The translations under genes were made by a program, and so were the position numbers. The notes under the pieces were generated by a model, which was given only the letters and a program-made list of their open reading frames with translations, was not told where the DNA came from and searched no databases. 64,000 nt of DNA from Maricaulis alexandrii (GTDB lineage Bacteria; Pseudomonadota; Alphaproteobacteria; Caulobacterales; Maricaulaceae): the NCBI RefSeq assembly GCF_005871165.1, contig NZ_SWKP01000009.1, forward strand, positions 62,001-126,000. The letters are read 5' to 3'. This document shows, piece after piece, positions 3,552-17,586 of this stretch. Positions within the stretch are counted from its first letter, which is position 1, and every line of letters begins with the position of its first letter.

Positions 3552-4913
3552 CTATGCCGCGGCTGCCAGTCCCCGACGACGCAGGAGGTTGGCCGGCTCG
3601 ACCATGCCGCCGGACTCCATCAGCCGGGCAGTGATCTCCAGCCCGTCCTGGGCGGTGGTCCGGTTCTGCCCTTCGCTGGAGGCCACCAGGTCCACCAGAA
3701 GCGCGCCGGCATCGGTCATCCGCTTTTCGCAGACATCCAGAATGCGCTTGTGCGTCGAGGCAATGGCCGCCGCATTCGTGTGTTCGCGGCAGCTGTTGAG
3801 GAAGAAGAGCAGGCCTTCCGCCTTGTCGATGGCCGCTTCGCTGGGCAATTGCGCCGGGATGATCCGGCCGGACCGGCCGCGCCGCGGCTCGGGCAGGCCA
3901 TTGTCCAGGGCCAGCGGGATCTTGTTCAACGTCTTTTCGACATTGCTGGACGCCTCGGCCCGGAGCGAGAACAGGACCTGGCCCCAGCGCCCGGCCTTGC
4001 GGATGCCGAATTCGCTGGTCATGCCATTGGAGTGGGCCACGAACTGGTCGAACACATGCGCGCTGGCCTTGGCTTCCTCCAGGGTCTGCGGCGGTTGCTT
4101 GAGCTTGGACGCAAAGAAGCCCGTATCGGCCAGAATGGCGTCGCCCACGGCCGCCAGATCCGTCTTGGAAACGACGAGATCATCTTCCCGGTTCCCGATC
4201 TTCGCGACCACACGGAAGATCTGCCAGGGCTCGGCCAGGCGGCCGATCGTCAGCAGCAGGACCCAGAGGGCCGCTTCGGGCGTCTCTTCAGACAGGCTTT
4301 CGTGCATTTCCCGGATCTGCTCGACCAGGTCGGGATCCAGTTCGACGATCTTGTCCGGCAAGGTCTTCATGGCCGTGCTGATTTCCTCGCAATGGGTCAG
4401 CAGGGAGGCCGCGTCGACCAGCATGCCCTTGGCATCGCCGCCGCCGAAGCGCTTCATCAGGGCCGTCATGTCCTTGGGCACGCGCTCAGCCGCTGCGATC
4501 GCATCCTTCAGCGCCTTGCCGGCGGTGCGGCGGAATTCGAACCAGATCGGATCGGATTCCGGCTTTCGGCATTTCTTGGCGGTTTCCACCATGTCCTTGG
4601 CCAGATGACGGGCCAGCCAGCCCCAGATCTTGGACAGGTCTTCCGGGCTGAAACGGAAACGGGATGGCGGGACCTTGCTCGGGTCGCCGACCAGATTGCG
4701 CAGCGGGGCGAGGACATAGGGCTTGGCCAGTTCGCCGGCCGGATCGCGCGTGGCTTCGTCGACCGTGGACAGAACCTCGAACAGCTGCGCCGCAGAGGCG
4801 TCCGTATCCTTGCCAGCCTTCGCCGTGGCAAGCAGAGCCGTCCGCTGTTCGGCGGACATGGAGCGCCAAAGCGCTTCAAGCTTTGCTTTTTGTGACTGCG
4901 AAATTCTGATCAT
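3552..4913 (-). CDS. Conserved hypothetical protein, 453 residues
   Basis: A soluble, mostly helical protein with no signal peptide or membrane segment. I do not recognise a domain. It has many charged helices and ends in an alanine run (GLAAAA). It stands alone, with about 60 bases to the methyltransferase downstream and an AT-rich gap of 64 bases upstream, so it is probably its own transcript. Codon use matches its neighbours and the frame is open throughout, which supports a real gene. No function is proposed. Confidence 0.75.
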   Translation of the reverse strand: MIRISQSQKAKLEALWRSMSAEQRTALLATAKAGKDTDASAAQLFEVLSTVDEATRDPAGELAKPYVLAPLRNLVGDPSKVPPSRFRFSPEDLSKIWGWLARHLAKDMVETAKKCRKPESDPIWFEFRRTAGKALKDAIAAAERVPKDMTALMKRFGGGDAKGMLVDAASLLTHCEEISTAMKTLPDKIVELDPDLVEQIREMHESLSEETPEAALWVLLLTIGRLAEPWQIFRVVAKIGNREDDLVVSKTDLAAVGDAILADTGFFASKLKQPPQTLEEAKASAHVFDQFVAHSNGMTSEFGIRKAGRWGQVLFSLRAEASSNVEKTLNKIPLALDNGLPEPRRGRSGRIIPAQLPSEAAIDKAEGLLFFLNSCREHTNAAAIASTHKRILDVCEKRMTDAGALLVDLVASSEGQNRTTAQDGLEITARLMESGGMVEPANLLRRRGLAAAA

Positions 4914-4977
4914 CTAATGAGACATGAGTTCTTGCCCGATTAGACTATTCGACAATTTAGGTTAAAAGATTATTTTT

Positions 4978-6363
4978 TTAACGCGAGGTCGCTGGCAACA
5001 TAATCCTTGCGCTCAACCCGCCCATCTCAGATCGACCGAGCGTCAGCTCGCCATCATAGGCCCGGGCCAGATCGCCCACGATCGCCAGCCCCAAGCCCGA
5101 TCCCGGCGCCTGTTCGTCCAGGCGCACCCCCCGTTTCAGGGCGGCTTCGCACTCCGCCACATCCAGACCGGGACCATCATCCTCGATCGTGATCGCCAGG
5201 CTGCGGTCGCCGGTGCGTTCCGCCCGCACCGTCACGGTGGAGCCCGCCCACTTGCAGGCATTGTCCATCAGATTGCCGACCATTTCGTCGAGATCCTGGC
5301 GCTCACCCTTGAACCGCAACTCGTCCGGCGCCTCCGCCTTGATGGTCAGCCCCTTGGCCTTGTTGATCTTTTCCAGCGTCCGGGCCAGATCCTTCACCGT
5401 CGGCGCAACATCGGTCCGCGCACCGATGGCCTTGGCATGGGCCGCCGCCCGGGCGCGGCGCAAATGGTGCTCCACCTGGCTGGTCATCACGGAGGTCTGC
5501 TTGTCGACCATGTCCGCCAGGGGGCCGTCATGGGTGTGCGCTTCATTCTTCAGCACCGCGATGGGTGTCTTGAGCGCATGGGCCAGATTGCCGACATGGG
5601 TGCGCGAGCGTTCGACCAGTTCCCGGGAATGGTCCAGCATGGCGTTGAGCTCGTCGGCAAGGGGCTGCAGCTCGGCGGGAAACTGTCCGTCGACGCGCTG
5701 CGTCTGCCCCTCGCGCACTTCGGCGACACTGTCGCGCATGCGCAGGACCGGTGCCAGACCGATCCTGACCTGGAAAAACACGCCCGCCGCAATCGCCGCC
5801 GCGAATCCCAGGAACATGCCGCCCGACACAATGGCGAAGTTGCGCACATCGCGGTCGGCCGGACGCCGGTCCTCCGCGGCCAGGACCAGGACCAGCCCCG
5901 TCCGCCCGGACAGCTGGATGGCCTGGCCGGTCACCCGCAAGGGCTCGCCCGACGGACCTTTGGAATCAGCGGTGAAAGGGGTCCCCGGATCCTGGTTGGC
6001 GGCGCTGACAATCTCGGCAGGCGGGATCAGGACCTCGTCCCAGAGGGAGCGGGAGACGGCCAGCACATCGCCGCCCTCTTCCGCCTCGCCATTCTCGACG
6101 ATCTGCCAATAGCGTCCGGAAAAAACCCGATCATAGGCCACGTCCGAGGGACGCCGGGCCAGCACGACATCACCGGCCGGGTCCGTCTCGGCCGCTGCGA
6201 CCAGCGCATCGACCACACTCTCCAGACGCTGGTCCAGCGTGCGCAGGACCGAGCGCTGATACAGCGTGGTCAGCGCGACCGCCCCCAGCAGCAGCAGGAC
6301 CAGGGCCCAGGCTGCGGCACCGGCAAACAGCCGGAAGGCCAGGGACGAGCGGGTTTGCTTCAC
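4978..6363 (-). CDS. feuQ: Sensor histidine kinase (FeuQ/PhoQ-like)
   Basis: A 461-residue inner-membrane kinase. Transmembrane segments are at about 11-35 and 176-199, enclosing a periplasmic sensor of about 140 residues. A HAMP region follows, then the H box NLAHALKTPIAV (phospho-acceptor His about 262), the N box NLMDNACKWA and the G boxes DDGPGLD and GSGLGLAIV. The GTG start at 6363 overlaps the TGA of the response regulator as GTGA, so the pair is translationally coupled. The H-box variant and partner resemble the FeuPQ/PhoPQ group. The ligand is unknown. Confidence 0.92.
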   Translation of the reverse strand: MKQTRSSLAFRLFAGAAAWALVLLLLGAVALTTLYQRSVLRTLDQRLESVVDALVAAAETDPAGDVVLARRPSDVAYDRVFSGRYWQIVENGEAEEGGDVLAVSRSLWDEVLIPPAEIVSAANQDPGTPFTADSKGPSGEPLRVTGQAIQLSGRTGLVLVLAAEDRRPADRDVRNFAIVSGGMFLGFAAAIAAGVFFQVRIGLAPVLRMRDSVAEVREGQTQRVDGQFPAELQPLADELNAMLDHSRELVERSRTHVGNLAHALKTPIAVLKNEAHTHDGPLADMVDKQTSVMTSQVEHHLRRARAAAHAKAIGARTDVAPTVKDLARTLEKINKAKGLTIKAEAPDELRFKGERQDLDEMVGNLMDNACKWAGSTVTVRAERTGDRSLAITIEDDGPGLDVAECEAALKRGVRLDEQAPGSGLGLAIVGDLARAYDGELTLGRSEMGGLSARIMLPATSR

Positions 6364-7451: not shown

Positions 7452-8363
7452 TCAGGACCGCATGCCCTTGCGCGGATCATAGCCCTTCGGCGGCGTCCAG
7501 TTTTCCAGAAATTCCGACAGGGCCTTGTCGCTGGACGGCAGCGCGACCATCAGGCGGACCAGCTGGTCACCGCGCTTGCCCTTGGCGGTCGCAAACCCGC
7601 GCCCGCGCAGGCGCAGCAGCGTGCCGCTGGAGGAACCGGCCGGGATCTGCAGATCCACCGGTCCGTCAATCGTCGGCACGCGCACCTTCGCGCCCAGCGC
7701 GGCCTCTTTCACCGTCACCGGCAATTCCAGCCGCACATTCTCGCCGTCGCGGGCGAAGTATTTGTGGTCGGCGACCTTGATCTCGATATAGGCATCCCCG
7801 GCCCGGCCACCGCCCGGCGAGGGTTCGCCCTGGCCACGCAGGCGCAGGACCTGGCCGTCCGAGGCCCCCGGCGGCACGGCGACATCCAGCGTCCGGCCAC
7901 CCGGCAGGCTGACCCGGTGCTTGCCGCCATTGGCCGCGTCGAGAAAATCCAGCGTCAGGGAATAGCGCACATCCTGGCCCTTGCGTGGCGGTGCCTGGCG
8001 CTGCTGTGCGCCCATATCGGTGAACAGGTCGGAGAAGATATCGCCGAAATCCTCGAACCCGGACCGGTTGCGGCCCTGGCGGAAATTGAACGGACCGCGT
8101 CCGCCCGCGCCGCCCGCTCCGCTGGCGCCACCCATGCCCATGCCGGCAAACCCGGCCCGTGCGGCCGCATCGTATTCGGCACGCTTTTCCGGATCGGACA
8201 GGAGTTTGAACGCCTGGGAGACGTGTTTGAACTTTTCCTCGGCCTTCGCATTGCCCGGATTGGCATCCGGATGCAGCTCCTTCGCCAGCTTGCGATAGGC
8301 CTTGCGGATCTCGTCCTGAGAAGCCGTCTTTTCGACGCCCAGCGTCTTGTAGGGATCGTCCAT
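7452..8363 (-). CDS. J-domain co-chaperone, CbpA/DnaJ-like without zinc fingers
   Basis: A 303-residue Hsp40. The J domain occupies residues 1-70 with HPD at about 31-33, followed by a Gly/Phe-rich linker (GMGMGGASGAGGAGG) and two beta-sandwich substrate-binding domains. The CxxCxGxG zinc repeats of DnaJ are absent, which places it in class II (CbpA-like). It would stimulate DnaK ATPase or act on nucleoid-associated substrates. The ATG at 8363 begins the canonical MDDPYKTLGV. Confidence 0.94.
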   Translation of the reverse strand: MDDPYKTLGVEKTASQDEIRKAYRKLAKELHPDANPGNAKAEEKFKHVSQAFKLLSDPEKRAEYDAAARAGFAGMGMGGASGAGGAGGRGPFNFRQGRNRSGFEDFGDIFSDLFTDMGAQQRQAPPRKGQDVRYSLTLDFLDAANGGKHRVSLPGGRTLDVAVPPGASDGQVLRLRGQGEPSPGGGRAGDAYIEIKVADHKYFARDGENVRLELPVTVKEAALGAKVRVPTIDGPVDLQIPAGSSSGTLLRLRGRGFATAKGKRGDQLVRLMVALPSSDKALSEFLENWTPPKGYDPRKGMRS

Positions 8364-8447: not shown

Positions 8448-11336
8448 CTAGAGTGTCAGCACACGGCGCACGCTGCGGCCTGCACCAAGCCTTGCCGAAA
8501 GCTGGGCAATCTCGACCGTGACGGCCTGCGGAAGTCCCCCGAAGGCGCCTGCAAGTTCCGCCTCCGCCAGGGTGAGCTCCGGCGTCGTGACCTCGGTCTC
8601 GAACACGGTCATCTCCCCGTCCAGCAGCCGCACGCGATAGGCTTCGCGCGCCTCGCCCAGATCCACCTCCGGAGCCGTCCAGTCATCACCTCCCGTCCGC
8701 GTTTGCCGGACCCAGCGCACCTGCCAGTGCGCGCCCTGCCAGGCCGCACGGACATGCACGACCGGCAGGGGCCGCAGCGCTCTTTGCTGATGGGTATGAG
8801 ACACGGACACCGCCGACCCGTCTGTCACCGGCCAGCCGGCGGCCACCGCCTGCACATCCAGCGGCGCACCAAGCTCGTGCGCATCCAGTGCCAGCGGCAC
8901 CAGCGCGTCGGACACCCACACCACCCGCGCACCGGGTTGCACATCCGTCACCGGCGAGCCGGCCAGCCCCCGCAAGAGTGTGCCCAAACGGTAGCGGTTC
9001 AGCCCGACCAGTTCGGCCTCGGCAAAGCCCAGGATTTCCCAATCCCCGTCCGCCTGCTGCACGGCCAGCCGGTTCGCACCATTCAGCACGTCCGGCCTCG
9101 GCCGGCTGGCCAGGCTGACCCCCGGCATCTCGACCTCCAGCCGGCCCGCCTCATCCCAATAACCCACCGGCCCCAACGCCAGCTCACCGACCAGGTGTCC
9201 CAGGCCGGCGGGCCGTTCGATCCGGGTCCGCCAGCGACCGCCGGCATGCACGTCCAGCGCGCCCGGCCAGTCGGCCACGCGGGCGGCCAGCAAGGGGCCC
9301 GCCTCATGCCCCAGCGCGCTGTCGATCACGGCCAGCGCCGGGCGGACAGGCGGGCGCGGTCCGGCACCATCCGGTCCGGCCACACTGCCGGCCACGCCCC
9401 GGGCCCGCTGTGACGGCGGACGCAGGCGCACACGGCCCGCCCCGTCGCCCTCGCGCCAGACCACTTCGCCGCCGCGTCCCGCAACCGTCAGCCGGTCCGC
9501 CGTTTCCAGCCCCAGCGCGAGGGGCGGCACGGTCAGGGTCAGGCTGGAGGCCCGCGTCTGGATGTCTGCCAGCCAGTCCCGGCACCAGCGCCGCGCCAGA
9601 TCCGGATCGGCCACGACATTCAGGGACAGGCCCGCACTGCGCACCGTCTCGAACGCCTCGACCGCCTGGGCCAGCCCCGGCCGGTAGTCGGCCGTGTCAT
9701 CGGCAAAGCGCAGCTGCACATCACCCGGCAGTTCCGCCCGCGCCGGTTCATGCATCTCCCACACGGCCCCACCGTCAAAGGCCGGCTCATCCAGCTCCAA
9801 TTGCGCCGCTCTCGCACCGGAAGAGACAAAGTGCAGCGCCTGTGCCCGCGCATGCACGCCAATCCCCAGCGCGGTGACCAGGGGCGACAGGGCCGCCCGC
9901 ACACTCATCGGCCGGTCGAGCCAATAGCCCGACACGACATCCTCCAGCTGCGAGACATCCACCGCCTCCAGCCCGGCCTGTGCGGTCAGCTCCTTCACCA
10001 TGTCGGCCAGCAGAACCTGCCCGGCCCGGCCATTCAGCCAGTGCCCGCGCGACCAATTTTCGCCATCCGACCAGACATCGCTGCGGCCGGGAAAGGCCGG
10101 CCAGGGTCGCGCATCCCAGCACCAGGCATGCATCAGTTCGACCGCCACCATCGGCTCGCCATAGACCGGGGAGACCGGATTCTTCGCCGGATCCGACCAA
10201 TGGGTCAGCAGGGCTTCCAGGACCCGCCGCTGGATCAGGTCATCGCGCGTCCCGTCGGAGAAATGCGGCCAGCCGCTTTCCGCGCTCTTGGGATCGAAGA
10301 AGAGATTGGGCTGGTTGGCGCCCTTGTCGATCGCCGGACACCCGATCTCGGTGAACCAGACCGGCTTGCTCTGTGGCACCCAGCCCGTCGGGTCAGCCGA
10401 CCGCACACCCGCGATCCGCTCATGATGCGGCTCGCGCCAGAAGGCGCGCACATCCTTCACCCGCCAGATCCAGGCCTCGTCATGGGCCTCGTCCGTGATC
10501 GGGGTGCGGATCTGGGCCGCCCGGTCGGCCTCACTGGCATAATACCAGTCATACCCTTCCCCGCCCTCGATCGCGGCAGCAAGATAGTCCGCATCCCGCG
10601 GTGAGGGCGCCAGGGCCGCATCCCGATGCGCCGCCCCGTCGCGCCAATCGCCCATCGGCGCATACCAATCGATCGCGACGGCATCGATCTCGGAATGGCT
10701 CCACAAATCGTCCAGATGAAACCGCCGCGTCCCGTCCGGCCGCGTATACCCGGCATATTCCGTCCAGTCCGCCGCATAGGAGAGCCGCGTCTCCTGACCC
10801 AGCAAGTCGCGCGCCTCGTCTGCCAGATCGCACAGCGCCGCCACGGCCGGATGCCCGCCCGCCGCATCGCTGACCGTCGTCAGGGCGACCATTTCCGACC
10901 CGATCAGGAAGCCGTCCACCCCGCCGGCCGCCTTCGCGAGCGCCGCCATGTGCAGGATGAAGCGGCGGCAGGACCATTCCGCCGGACCGGCATAGCTGAC
11001 AGCCTCACTGCCGACCGCAAAGTCCGACGCCGCAGCCGTGCCGAAAAAGGCGGCAATCTGAGACGCCGCCACTGCCGTTCCGTCCACCGAGCCCGCCACA
11101 TCGCGTGCCGGATGACAGCTGACCCGTCCGCGCCAGGGATGGGCGGCCTGCTCCCCGCCGCCATACGGGTCCGGCAGACCGTTTCCGGCGGGAATATCCA
11201 TCAGGATGAAGGGATAGAGCGTCACGGAGAAACCGCGCGCCTTGAGCTGGCGGATCGCCGCGATCACACTGGCATCATCCGGCGTGCCGCCATAGGCCGG
11301 ACGCCCCTCCACCTGACTCACCGCACGGGCGTCTGA
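8448..11336 (-). pseudogene. GTA baseplate hub protein (g15, megatron), C-terminal three quarters
   Basis: About 962 codons remain open, encoding the TIM-barrel domain (starting QVEGRPAYGGTPDDASV) and the tail-hub/fibre domains of the gene transfer agent protein g15. The N-terminal 297 codons lie in the opposite orientation at 12180-13070. Joining 13070 to 11336 gives a single frame of about 1259 residues, close to the roughly 1300 expected for the Rhodobacter GTA protein. The frame continues past 11336 into unrelated inverted sequence, so this part has no natural start here. It is not functional unless the inversion reverts. Confidence 0.85.
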
Positions 11337-11470
11337 GCGAGCGGCTGGACCAGCTGGAACGCATGGATGCGCGGCAGGGGCCGCTGGCGGAACGCCTGGC
11401 CAGCCTGGAAGCGGAGATGCGCCTAGCGCGGGAGAGCCTGGTGCGGATTGAACGGCGGATGGAGGAGTAG
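11336..11470 (+). pseudogene. GTA g3.5-like small protein, C-terminal half (inverted)
   Basis: The 44 codons read SERLDQLERMDARQ and on to VRIERRMEE and stop, a coiled-coil tail. Its missing N-terminal half, a membrane-anchored segment, is at 13071-13179 on the minus strand. Re-inverting 11337-13070 joins the two in frame to give a protein of about 80 residues directly after the portal gene, where GTA clusters carry g3.5. Confidence 0.75.
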
Positions 11471-11475
11471 TCTTC

Positions 11476-11531
11476 GTCTGCCCCCTCATCCGGTCCTTCG
11501 GACCACCTTCTCCCGCGAGGGGAGAAGGAGG
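11476..11531. repeat. Dispersed CCCTCATCCGG / CTTCTCCCGCGAGG-type intergenic repeat
   Basis: A short palindromic intergenic repeat of the kind scattered through alphaproteobacterial genomes: CTCATCCGGTCCTTCGGA followed by CTTCTCCCGCGAGGGGAGAA. It lies exactly at the scar between the g3.5 remnant and the g13 remnant, where GTA genes g4 to g12 would be expected. Shorter relatives (GTCTCCCCGGCGGGGAGAAG) occur near 58850. Confidence 0.6.
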
Positions 11532-11533
11532 GC

Positions 11534-11719
11534 ATGGCACCTGACCCGGCGCATCCGGATTTCGGTACGGGCTGTGACCAGGCCTTCGGCACTTGCCGGG
11601 ACCGGTTTGCCAATACGCTGAACTTTCGCGGTTTTCCCTACATGGTCGGCAATGATGTCCTGCAGCGTGCGGCCGGCGACGAGCCGGTGCGCGATGGCGG
11701 ATCGCGGGGGCTGGCATGA
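11534..11719 (+). pseudogene. GTA g13 (DUF2163) C-terminal remnant
   Basis: Only the last 61 codons survive. They carry the conserved C-terminal signature CDQAFGTCRDRFANTLNFRG followed by FPYMVGND. The stop overlaps the start of the NlpC/P60 gene as ATGA, the normal g13-g14 arrangement. The N-terminal four fifths is deleted. An apparent ATG at 11534 is fortuitous. Confidence 0.8.
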
Positions 11720-12198
11720 GGGCGCGCGGGGCGGTTCTGCGCGAGGCGCGGCGCTGGATCGCGACACCCTATCGCCACCAGGCCAGCTGCCGCGGCGCGG
11801 GCTGTGATTGTCTGGGCCTGCTGCGCGGGATCTGGCGGGCGCTCTACGGCGCGGAGCCGGAAAGCGTGCCGCCCTATACGCCCGATTGGGCGGAGGTGGC
11901 GGGCGCGGAGACCCTGCGTGAGGCGGCGTTGCGGCATCTGGTCGAGATCGATCGAGCGGCGGCGAAGCCGGGGGATGTCCTCCTCTTCCGGCCGGACCTC
12001 AAAGGGCCTGCCAAGCATTGCGCGATCCTGTCGGGCCCCGACCGGATTATTCATGCCTATTGGGGCCAGGCCGTGGCGGAGACGGCGCTGACGCCCTGGT
12101 GGCGAAGACGCTGTGTGGCGGCGTTCGCCTTTCCCGATCTGCCCGCGCCGGACACCGGCCTCATCAGCAAGGAGACGCTATGGCCCAGCTTGTCGTAA
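11716..12198 (+). CDS. GTA g14, NlpC/P60 cell-wall peptidase
   Basis: A complete 160-residue NlpC/P60 peptidase of the phage-tail/GTA type. It has the catalytic cysteine in GAGCDCLGLLRG (about residue 32) and the His in AKHCAIL, followed by HAYWG. In GTAs it is a tail-tip hydrolase that opens the recipient peptidoglycan. It overlaps the g15 fragment by 19 bases, as in intact clusters. It is intact but lies inside the inverted segment, so it is now antisense to the rest of the cluster and has probably lost its promoter. Confidence 0.85.
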   Translation: MRARGAVLREARRWIATPYRHQASCRGAGCDCLGLLRGIWRALYGAEPESVPPYTPDWAEVAGAETLREAALRHLVEIDRAAAKPGDVLLFRPDLKGPAKHCAILSGPDRIIHAYWGQAVAETALTPWWRRRCVAAFAFPDLPAPDTGLISKETLWPSLS

Positions 12199-13070
12199 CG
12201 GCGGGACAGGCCGCGCTGAAAGGCGTGCAGCATGTCGGCCCGGCTGTGGCCCGCTTGGCGGCGGACACGGCGGTCGATGCCCTGTTCCGCACCCGCAAGG
12301 ACGGGCCACGCCTGGCCGAGATCGAGGTGCAGACCTCCACGGACGGCGCGCCCATGGCCCGCGTCTGGGGACGGGCGCGGATCACCGGCCAAGTGATCTG
12401 GGCGGCGCGCTTCGCAGAGCATTTCGAAGACACAGGCGGTGGCAAGGGCGGGCCGACGCAGCGGGATTATCACTACACACTCTCTTTCGCCGTGGGCCTG
12501 TGCGAAGGCGAGATCTCCGGCATCGGTCGAATCTGGGCGAACGGGTCACTGCTGGACCAATCGCTTTACCCGGTGCGGGTCCATGCGGGAGGCGAGGACC
12601 AGGCACCGGATGCCCTGATCCAGGCCCTTGAGGGCGAGACGGCGCCGGCTTTCCGGGGCACGGCCTATGTCGTGATGGAGGATTGGCCGCTGGAGGTGTT
12701 CGGGCATCGCATTCCCAATCTGTCCTTCGAGATTTTCCGGCAGGCGGGAACGGGTGGGCTGGAGCGGCAAGTGCCGGGCGTGAACCTGATCCCGGGCACG
12801 GGCGAATTCGCCTATTCCGACAGCGTCGTGATGCGCGTCTTCGGTGAGGGCGAGGAGGTCGCGGAGAATGTCCATAACGGGCGCGGCCTGCCGGACTTCA
12901 TGGCGGCCCTGGACGATCTGGAGCGCGATTTGCCGAATTGCCGCTCGGTGCAGCTGGTCGTTGCCTGGTTCGGCGATGATCTGCGTTGCGGACAGTGCAC
13001 GATCCGGCCCTGCGTCGAGACCGCGGACAAGGCGACCCGTCCGACGGACTGGTCGGTGGCAGGTCTCGAG
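12180..13070 (+). pseudogene. GTA g15 N-terminal fragment (inverted)
   Basis: From ATG 12180 (MAQLVVTAGQAALKG) 297 codons encode the N-terminal domain of the GTA hub protein, including GLCEGEISGIGRIWANG and the tail of this domain DWSVAGLER. Homology ends at about 13070, where the sequence switches to the reverse complement of the g3.5 gene. The rest of the protein is at 8448-11336 on the minus strand. The open frame runs on to 13142 only by chance. Confidence 0.85.
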
Positions 13071-13179
13071 CGGACACCCGGCCGGACCAGATCAGCGCGC
13101 CGGAGGTCTGCAGCACGATCGCCAGCAACACCCCCAGCGTGACCTGCCGCTGCAGCGTCCATCCCTGTGACACCGTCAT
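13071..13179 (-). pseudogene. GTA g3.5-like small membrane protein, N-terminal half
   Basis: The start ATG overlaps the portal stop (ATGA). The 36 codons encode an N-terminal segment with one membrane helix, VTLGVLLAIVLQTSGALIW, then break off at SAR where the g15 N-terminal fragment begins on the other strand. The matching coiled-coil half is at 11336-11470. GTA clusters of this class carry a short membrane-anchored protein after the portal, which fits. Confidence 0.72.
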
Positions 13180-14108
13180 TCGCTCACCTCCCGCTTGCCT
13201 GTCTCGACCGAAATGTTCAGATCCGCCCCGAACCAGGGCGCCAGCCACACTTCCAGCGCCCGCGCCGCCTTGCGCGCCAGCGGCTGGACGGTCTGGGTCC
13301 AGAAGGCCTGGTTGGCCTCCTTGTAATTGGCGTAGGTATTGTCGCCGGGCAGGCCCAGCAGGAGCGGCGGCACGCCGAAGGCCAGTGCGATCTCGCGCGC
13401 CGCCTCCCGCCGCGCCGCGATAAAATCCATCTCCGCCGGGCTCAGCGCCATCGGTTTCCAGTCCAGCCCGCCTTCCAGCAAGAGCGGCCGCCCGGCATTG
13501 TCCGGCCCGGAATGGGCGCCAGTCAGTTCCGCCTTGAGCCGGTCAAACTGGTCCTCGGTCAGATGCCCGTCCGCCCCGTTGAAAACCAACGCCCCGGACG
13601 GCCGCGCCGCATTGGAGATCAGCGCCCGCGCCCAGTCCGCCGAGGCCGTGTGCAGATCCAGCGCCCGCCCCGCCGGCTCCAGCGGCGACAGCCCGTAATG
13701 ATCATCGCCCGGGTGAAAGAGTTTGAGATGAAACACCGGCGAGCGCCCGCTCGCCCGGTCGCGCTCGAAACGCCGCACAGAGCCCGCTGCCGAGTATTCC
13801 CACCCCGCCGGCCAGCCCGTCCGGTCCGCCAGCACCCGCATCCGGTCCGGCCGCAGAGCGAACAGTTCGCGCGGCTCGCCCTCCAGGCTGGAGAGCTCCA
13901 GATAGGCATTGCCCGCCAGCTGCAGGAAGCCATAAACGCCCTCCCACAACTCCGCGCCGGACTGTTCCGCATTCGGCCGGTCCAACAGTGTTTGTGCAGC
14001 CGCGTCCGAGGCCTGAAACCCCAGCGAGGCCGCCGCCTCCGCCACCAGACGCACACAGCGATTGGCAATCGCATTGCGCCCATAACCCGCCTGCATCTGC
14101 ACCGGCAG
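13176..14108 (-). pseudogene. GTA HK97-type portal protein (g3), N-terminally truncated
   Basis: About 310 codons of an HK97-family portal remain, from AGYGRNAIANRCVRLVAEAA to the stop. Recognisable stretches are FHLKLFHPGDD, YGLSPLEPAG, AFGVPPLLLGLPGDN and YANYKEANQAFW. The first few dozen residues are missing: the homology starts directly at the truncated terminase, at a deletion junction near 14109-14118. The frame is otherwise uninterrupted. RcGTA g3 is about 400 residues, so roughly a fifth is lost. Confidence 0.85.
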
Positions 14109-14118
14109 CGCCCGCGGC

Positions 14119-14673
14119 GCCCAGCCGCAGCCCCATGCGCAACATGTCCAGCGTCGCCTGCGGCTTCGCCCAGGCAGCAAACTCATCCCCCCAGGCCCGC
14201 TCGAATTGCGGCCCGCGCAACCCGTCCGGATCCTCCGCCGAAAAGGCATAGGCCACCGCGCCGCACGCCCAGACCAGCCGCTTGCGCGTCGCCTCATAAC
14301 GCGGCCGATCCTCCGCCGGCCCCACCGCCATCAGCCCGGACGGCCCCTCGATCATCACCTCACGCACATCATTGAAAGTCGGCCCGACCAGCGCGATGCG
14401 CCGCACCCCGGCCTCTACTTGCAAGCGCACCCATTCTGCACCCGCCCGTGTCTTCCCGGCCCCGCGCCCACCGAGGAACAGCCAGATCAGCCAGTCGTCC
14501 TCGGGTGGGGCAAATTGGGCGTCATTTGCGCTCAGACAGAACGCATCAAGGCTCCGTTCCAGCTCGGCGCGCTCTAGCCTCGTCAAGCTCTCGTCTAAAT
14601 CCAAGGCGATCGGCCTGACGTTCGATCCGGCTTCGGAGGACGGCTTTGATCTCGTCGTCGGACATGTGGTCAT
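14119..14673 (-). pseudogene. GTA large terminase (g2), N-terminal ATPase fragment
   Basis: This encodes the Walker A motif GGRGAGKTRAGAEW, the following IALVGPTFNDVREVM, and the Walker B region AWGDEFAAWAKPQATLDML. The homology stops after RMGLRLG at about 14119. The C-terminal nuclease half and the start of the portal are deleted, and the portal remnant follows in another frame. The exact start is uncertain. ATG 14673 overlaps the upstream gene by 128 bases, and a later non-ATG start is possible. Confidence 0.82.
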
Positions 14674-15037
14674 AGGGCCCTGCCTCCTTGTCTGGGGCGG
14701 CCATCGTCCCGGTCTTGTCTTCAATCATCACAATCCCCTGCTGCTGCAGTTCGGCATTGGCCTGCTTGCAGATCCGCGCGCCGCGCTCGTCGCCCACCAG
14801 CAACTTGCCGGGCACTCGACCTTGCAGTCGGCGTCTGGATACTGCCTCGATCTCCGCGATTTCATCGGCTGTGCAGGCTGCCAATCGCCGCCGCGCATGC
14901 CCGATTGAACTGACATTCTTGCGGGTCAGTTCCGCAATTTCCTTGTCACGCATCCCGGCTTCGCCGAGCCGCAACCAGGGGAGCCAGTCTGGAAGATCCC
15001 AGTGCCCCACCCGTCTGTTTCGCTCTTTTCCGACCAT
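14546..15037 (-). CDS. Small DNA-binding protein upstream of terminase, candidate small terminase
   Basis: A 163-residue basic protein starting MVGKERNRR. Residues about 30-50 look like a helix-turn-helix (EAGMRDKEIAELTRKNVSSI), and the C-terminus is a charged helix (RSRIERQADRLGFRRELDEA). It lies immediately upstream of and overlaps the large terminase remnant, the position of g1/TerS in GTA and phage clusters. The role as small terminase is inferred from position and the HTH only. Confidence 0.6.
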   Translation of the reverse strand: MVGKERNRRVGHWDLPDWLPWLRLGEAGMRDKEIAELTRKNVSSIGHARRRLAACTADEIAEIEAVSRRRLQGRVPGKLLVGDERGARICKQANAELQQQGIVMIEDKTGTMAAPDKEAGPYDHMSDDEIKAVLRSRIERQADRLGFRRELDEARARRAGTEP

Positions 15038-15668: not shown

Positions 15669-16115
15669 CTAAGCCTCTTCCAGCACCCGCACTTCACTCA
15701 TCGGCCGGGCCGTCACCGCAATGCGCGGGCGGTCGCCCTCGACCTTGGTGACGAGCAGGCGTTCCACCTGGCTGTCATCATGGAAGACCACGCCGGTCAG
15801 GGCATCGAGCACGGCCTTGGCGACATTGTCGACGTCGTGGGTCGGGCTTTGCGGGGTGCGCTGGATCTCGATGGTGACTTCGTACGGGCCCCATTTCGGG
15901 CGCGCCCGCTTGAACTCAAGCCGGAAGAATTCCCCGATCAGGGATTTGAAGCGACGCGTCTGCGTGGTCACCGCGTCAACGCGCAAATTGAGTTCGTCGC
16001 CAGACATCAGAGCCTGAACCTTCCCGCGTCCTGTCCAGTTTTGCGCCTGCCCCCCTTTGGCCCGGGATTTCCCCGACGGGCCGCGGCGAAGCGCATCGCC
16101 TGCTTGATCCATCAT
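15669..16115 (-). CDS. RusA-like Holliday-junction endodeoxyribonuclease
   Basis: A 148-residue protein with the RusA core. The acidic metal-binding run is [20 protein letters not shown] followed by HDDSQV, and the N-terminal part contains the beta strand [12 protein letters not shown]. RusA enzymes are phage-derived resolvases that cut four-way junctions. It heads the minus-strand GTA-like cluster and is divergent from fumC. The N-terminal 35 residues are low complexity and basic, so the true start could be the internal ATG of [10 protein letters not shown]. Confidence 0.8.
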
Positions 16116-16191
16116 GTCCGAGTGCTACACGTTCGACTCGATCTTTACCATCTACCCCCCGCACGCAGCGGGCTGCAAGGAGCCTCCCCTG

Positions 16192-17586
16192 ATGAGCGAG
16201 ATGCGCACCGAGACCGACAGCTTCGGACCGCTTGAAGTACCCGCCGACAAACTCTTCGGCGCCCAGACCGCCCGCTCGCTGATCAACTTCCCGATCGGCA
16301 CGGAGACCATGCCCAAACCGCTGATCCGCGCCCTGGGCATCGTCAAGCGTTCCGCCGCCCTCGCCAACAAGCGCCTGGACAATATGGAAGCGGAGTATGC
16401 GGACGCCATTGCCGCCGCCGCGCTGGAAGTCGCCGAAGGCAAGCTGGACGACCATTTCCCGCTCTCTGTCTGGCAGACCGGCTCGGGCACGCAGTCCAAC
16501 ATGAACACGAATGAGGTCGTCTCCAACCGCGCCATCCAGATGCTCGGCGGCACGGTCGGCTCCAAGGATCCGATCCACCCGAATGATCATGTAAACCGGT
16601 CCCAGTCCTCCAACGACACCTTCCCGACGGCCATGCATATCGCCGCCGCCGAGGAGATTTCGCACAGCCTGATCCCGGCCCTGCAGACCCTGCACAATGC
16701 CCTCAACGACAAGTCGCAGGCCTTCAAGGACATCATCAAGATCGGCCGCACCCACACCCAGGACGCCACGCCGCTGACACTGGGCCAGGAATTCTCCGGC
16801 TATGTCGCCATGGTCAAGAATGCGATCCGCCGCATCGAGGCCACCCTGCCCGCCCTCTACGAGCTGGCCCAGGGCGGCACCGCCGTCGGCACCGGCCTGA
16901 ACACCAAGAAGGGCTTCGCGGAAGCCTTCGCCGAGGAAGTCGCCGGCTTCACCAAGCTGCCCTTCGTCACCGCCCCGAACAAGTTCGAGGCCCTGGCCAC
17001 CAAGGATGCCCTGGTGGAAGCCCATGGCGCGCTCAACTCGGCTGCCGTCTCCCTGTTCAAGATCGCCAATGACATCCGCCTGCTGGGCTCCGGCCCGCGT
17101 TCGGGTCTGGGCGAGCTGGCCCTGCCGGAAAACGAGCCGGGCTCCTCGATCATGCCGGGCAAGGTGAACCCGACCCAGTGCGAGGCGATGACCATGGTCT
17201 GTTCGCAGGTGATGGGCAATAACACCACGGTGAGCTTCGCCGGCTCCCAGGGCCATTTCGAGCTCAATGTCTACAAGCCGGTCATCATCTACAATGTCCT
17301 GCAGTCGATCCGTCTCCTGGCCGACAGCGCCAACACCTTCACCGAGAAGTGTGTCGTCGGCATCGAGGCCCGCGAGGACAATATCCGCCAGTTGATGGAA
17401 CGCTCCCTCATGCTGGTCACCGCCCTCAACTCCACGATCGGCTATGACAATGCCACCGTGGTCGCCAAGACCGCCCACAAGAACGGCACGACCCTGCGCG
17501 AAGAAGCCGTCAAACTCGGCTTCGTCACCGAAGAACAATTCGACGCCATCGTCCGCCCGGAAAACATGCTGGGCCCGAAGGACTAG
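16192..17586 (+). CDS. fumC: Fumarate hydratase class II
   Basis: This TCA-cycle enzyme interconverts fumarate and malate in the cytoplasm without an iron-sulfur cluster. The 464-residue length is normal. The superfamily signature [11 protein letters not shown] lies at about 317-327, and the substrate-site stretches [14 protein letters not shown] and [11 protein letters not shown] are present. The ATG at 16192 is preceded by AAGGAG with good spacing, which decides it over an upstream in-frame ATG. A strong terminator follows. Confidence 0.98.

Follow-up and report, generated by a model that had tools for sequence, protein, structure and literature searches.

Probably recent breakage of an RcGTA-like gene transfer agent cluster in Maricaulis alexandrii, with a probable one-off illegitimate inversion splitting g3.5 and g15

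Gene transfer agents (GTAs) are tamed phages that package host DNA. The window analysed here, a stretch of 64,000 nucleotides from Maricaulis alexandrii, contains the remnant of such a cluster on its minus strand, running from about 14724 down to 8448, between a gene for a DnaJ-like protein (7452-8363) and a fumarase gene (16114-17586), both recognised by eye. The flanking DNA on both sides matches that of M. parjimensis and has the same arrangement in a DNA comparison. The remnant is located on contig C9 of a genome of 3,348,699 bp in 12 contigs. The strain is presumably LZ-16-1, later named M. alexandrii. In the accessible text of the genome report, Maricaulis sp. LZ-16-1 was assembled with SPAdes at 461x into 12 contigs totalling 3,348,699 bp (PMC7256253). 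The features of the locus, in order of position, are as follows.

8448..11338, minus strand: g15 (GTA TIM-barrel hub protein), C-terminal 962 codons, separated from the N-terminal part; Pfam GTA_TIM, Phage-tail_3 and Rcc01698_C; open, no stop
11339..13071, plus strand: inverted segment, 1733 bp; breakpoints ±1 bp, for the simplest ancestor
11339..11471, plus strand: g3.5 C-terminal part including the stop; 88% DNA identity to M. parjimensis over 11326-11471
11472..11548, no strand: ~5.5 kb deletion junction (loss from g4 to g13 residue ~164); M. parjimensis locus L120 5383 to 10872 absent
11478..11533, plus strand: dispersed palindromic repeat at the 5.5-kb deletion junction; matches elsewhere in the same genome
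11548..11719, plus strand: g13 C-terminal remnant; homology to L120, Pfam match of the L120 g13, stop read
11716..12198, plus strand: g14, NlpC/P60 peptidase, whole, reversed; Pfam
12180..13071, plus strand: g15 N-terminal 297 codons; frame passes the breakpoint, stop ends at 13142
13072..13179, minus strand: g3.5 N-terminal 35 codons plus a split codon; projection onto relatives
13176..14126, minus strand: g3 portal without about the first 31 residues; Phage_portal and comparison with M. parjimensis
14118..14126, minus strand: ~0.9 kb deletion junction, with a 9-bp overlap between the terminase and portal alignments
14118..14724, minus strand: g2 terminase, ATPase part only, nuclease domain lost; Terminase_6N only, corresponding to about 203 of 462 residues in M. 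parjimensis

The C-terminal piece of g15 matches the Pfam family GTA_TIM with an E-value of 4.6e-137, and this is the only GTA_TIM match in the genome. All of the pieces named in the original prediction are present, namely the C-terminal part of g15 on the minus strand, g14, the N-terminal part of g15, the C-terminal part of g3.5 and the C-terminal end of g13 on the plus strand, and the N-terminal part of g3.5 on the minus strand from 13179. A 1089-residue open frame on the minus strand (8448-11717) extends the C-terminal part of g15 back across the repeat and the antisense sequences of g3.5 and g13; the upper portion of this frame is probably fortuitous, a product of the inversion.

The reference for comparison was the M. 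parjimensis locus L120 (G004:C16; presumably NZ_JADOTT010000008.1), in which the cluster is uninverted and on one strand, with the portal gene and the N-terminal part of g3.5 at 4196-5247, the C-terminal part of g3.5 at 5238-5383, the end of g13 through to the N-terminal part of g15 at 10872-12401, and the C-terminal part of g15 from 12392. The separated pieces (35 and 43 residues for g3.5, 297 and 962 for g15) were also projected individually onto 18 other Maricaulis genomes. At the g15 join the gap between the pieces is exactly 3 bp in 15 of these, and 6 bp in G018; G012 and G013 are unreadable at the compared loci. At the g3.5 join it is exactly 3 bp in 11 of the 18, the other 7 being unreadable at the compared loci, and the same one-codon gap recurs at 35 of 35 loci within and beyond the genus where the two pieces lie no more than 200 bp apart, some of these loci sharing a genome. 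Among the matches listed, those to other members of the genus overrun either inversion junction by no more than about 15 bp. Two joins would both be in frame by chance in 1 case in 9; codon-exact agreement over so many relatives is far beyond chance. From these alignments we consider the inversion to be real, and to split g3.5 and g15 cleanly.

A single, frame-exact inversion, as originally proposed, accounts for both breaks. In the relatives the joins are codon-exact. There both genes are single and continue across the proposed joins, and the uninverted order expected of close relatives is found in M. parjimensis and others. The position of the event shifts by a few bases from the 11337-13070 first given. 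Sliding arithmetic, with the simplest ancestor, places the best breakpoints at 11339 and 13071, with 1 bp of play each way; cutting at 11337-13070 keeps both frames, by our own working, and transfers a codon from g15 to g3.5. Neither inversion junction has an exact copy in viral contigs (0 for each).

Two further lesions are apparent against L120. The first, of about 0.9 kb, comprises the second half of g2 and the first ~31 residues of g3, that is, terminase residue ~203 to portal residue ~31. There is a short similarity at this junction, and the truncated portal directly abuts the ATPase part of the terminase. The terminase large subunit is incomplete. The second, of about 5.5 kb, extends from g4 to residue ~164 of g13. 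L120 has the genes that are missing here (capsid, connector, tail completion, tail tube, tape-measure-like, DUF2460 and the whole of g13), and has the conserved order terminase-portal-capsid-tail-g12-g15, which here is interrupted by the absence of everything from the capsid to most of g13. Re-inversion would, as predicted, put the remaining genes on one strand and in order, but it would not give an intact cluster, because the two deletions eliminated most tail genes along with the capsid, and truncated the terminase and portal. The end of g13 had been correctly recognised within the segment, although the two deletions had gone unreported.

The lost genes are not found elsewhere in the genome, which is 99.99% complete. 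When the missing 5.5 kb of L120 was compared with it, no part of the lost middle was recovered; there were at least 27 matches (40 of 223 candidates scored), of which 25 hit a dispersed repeat located in the query's first ~170 bases and two are weak matches of 33 and 50 bp. Profile searches of the genome gave no match for Phage_capsid or Terminase_6C, and no second intact GTA copy was found in it by capsid, GTA_TIM, terminase nuclease or DNA search. The repeat at 11478-11533 has at least 23 further matches in the same genome (40 of 200 candidates scored), one of them with 100% identity across 56 bp. Directly after g3.5, M. parjimensis carries another dispersed repeat, of ~140 bp, that differs from this one.

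How recent is the damage? There is no stop in the 962 + 296 codons of g15. For its C-terminal part, dN/dS is 0.28 and 0.24 between this genome and two sisters (M. parjimensis and the MAG IN27), and 0.29 between the sisters themselves. Codon changes assigned to single lineages number 36 nonsynonymous (N) and 83 synonymous (S) on this branch for the C-terminal piece and 7/19 for the N-terminal piece, a total of 43/102, compared with 114/207 for the sisters pooled (Fisher P = 0.24). In a model with a neutral period (neutral N/S 2.6), such a period gives P = 0.009 if it occupies 5% of the branch and 0.0006 at 10%, with zero already giving 0.08; this estimate draws on three lineages and takes the synonymous rate to be even. 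On this genome's side the portal remnant shows 0 N/15 S. The N-terminal part of the terminase (N/S 12/8, versus 7/15 and 3/9 in the sisters), in which many of the changes lie in a poorly aligned N-terminal stretch, was left out of the dating, as was g14 with its small numbers (4/7, versus 2/16 in M. parjimensis and 11/21 in BWSM_1). Neither has the low ratio of g15, which speaks against a uniform absence of change. Since g15 shows no excess of amino-acid change and both of its pieces are without an internal stop, the damage looks recent, in keeping with the original prediction, and, compared with the species split, the break is probably a recent one.

The breakpoints themselves carry little sequence that could have guided recombination. 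Within 50 bp of the two breakpoints, exact inverted matches reach at most 6 bp; among 293 random pairs at about the same spacing the mean is 6.8 bp and 90% reach 6. No repeat pairing 11339 with 13071 was present among the 25 repeats listed of 32. The M. parjimensis serine codon at the g3.5 join differs from the N-side remnant here, and by our own working two adjacent bases near this join allow an inverted homology at the inversion of either 2 bp or ~6 bp, depending on which serine codon the ancestor had. Neither length would resemble a recombinase site. A Salmonella survey describes, in its accessible text, short inverted repeats at all confirmed inversions and a deduced cut-off of at least 12 bp (PMC3411829); this exceeds the homology here, and any proposed mechanism is thus tentative. 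End joining through Ku was rejected, as Ku has no match in the genome (a control panel gave a match in 1 of 14). Resolvase-family proteins have five matches in the genome, on contigs C1, C6 and C8, two of them in open frames of 189 and 204 residues, about the size of an invertase; contig C9 has none of the five.

The most satisfactory explanation, in which we have high confidence, is an illegitimate inversion that happened once, in an RcGTA-like cluster only recently inactivated. One deletion would have removed the C-terminal half of the terminase and the start of the portal, and another the genes from g4 through most of g13. The inversion, conservative and 1.73 kb long (or about 7.2 kb if it took place before the large deletion), would have cut g3.5 and g15 when two breaks lacking useful homology were illegitimately rejoined on a single occasion, rather than through a site-specific switch. 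The breakage may have been linked to replication or to a topoisomerase. The inversion adds no new mechanism, and the deletions and inversion could differ in timing.

A variant of this explanation, unlikely but deserving some weight, is that one multi-break or template-switching event produced the inversion together with both deletions. In favour of such a burst, all the lesions fall inside 3 kb and g15 has no sign of long decay. Against it, template switching would not be expected to give the conservative joins seen at both ends of the inversion, and the deletion junctions are unlike each other, with a short similarity at one and a dispersed repeat at the other.

We think it distinctly improbable that chimeric short-read joins made the inversion and deletions during assembly. 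The undecayed state of g15 would fit such an artefact, as would the 56-bp repeat at one junction with its identical copy elsewhere. The missing 5.5 kb, however, was found on no other contig of a nearly complete assembly, and the inversion junctions share only a few bp. Shared sequence this short is too short to mislead a k-mer assembler. The depth reported for this isolate assembly in the accessible text also makes an error unlikely (PMC7256253).

That a recombinase flips the segment as a switch, turning g15 and g3.5 on and off, is scarcely credible, and was rejected: the inversion is conservative and frame-exact and the genome has two resolvase-family frames of suitable size, but no paired inverted repeat above chance is found at the breakpoints, which lie within coding sequence, none of the five resolvase-family matches is on the same contig, and the readable other Maricaulis genomes show the uninverted order only. 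With the capsid and terminase nuclease gone, flipping back could not restore a particle, and the earlier suggestion of a reversible switch is abandoned. Invertible segments of the Hin/Gin type have conservative inversion in common with this locus, but here no inverted recombination sites were found, the contig has no resolvase-family match, and the breakpoints are inside genes.

The cluster is best described, with only slight reservation, as an RcGTA-like head-tail cluster that has recently become non-functional in one Maricaulis lineage. It shares with the RcGTA-like (alphaproteobacterial type I) GTAs the same gene set and, apart from the inversion, the same order, including the GTA_TIM hub protein, the NlpC/P60 peptidase g14, portal and terminase. 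It differs in having no capsid, connectors, tail tube, tape measure or g12 and little of g13, in its truncated terminase and portal, and in the one inversion. Incomplete RcGTA-like clusters are a known class. The present one is likewise partial, and judged from its gene content it is probably inactive, so that particle production would have been lost; it differs from them in that the break is recent enough for each inversion breakpoint to be placed within a few bases. In the part of one study accessible to us, RcGTA-like genomes of this class are said frequently to carry prophage annotations, whether intact or incomplete (PMC9662315). The C. crescentus cluster was, in the accessible text of another, once suggested to be incomplete (PMC9632790); unlike the probably inactive cluster here, it proved functional. 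Among the papers listed by literature searches on GTAs, Maricaulis, Caulobacterales and inversions, titles and abstract openings contain nothing on this locus, and in the accessible parts of PMC7256253 and PMC12195228 the term 'gene transfer agent' occurs as a general remark.

Phage_capsid is found in 14 of the 19 Maricaulis genomes, the exceptions being this one, G006 (65% complete), G018 (69%), G013 and G017. In the MAG G013 (L135, 3045-5302), terminase residues 61-180 lie directly beside g15 residues 629-1260; this is an independent deletion of the cluster. In G017 (L138, L139), which is 99% complete, the cluster runs to contig ends with no capsid match, reflecting either loss or an assembly gap. 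It is conceivable, but doubtful, that Maricaulis loses its GTA clusters again and again, and abruptly, as though selection opposed them; this reading derives from the different deletions in this genome and G013, and from several breaks having occurred here almost at once with g15 still constrained.

The locus provides a clear, datable case of GTA loss. It also counsels caution, in that a GTA_TIM match or a long open g15 frame does not prove the presence of a working GTA. That g15 stayed under constraint almost up to the break argues for an agent that was still useful to this lineage in the recent past.
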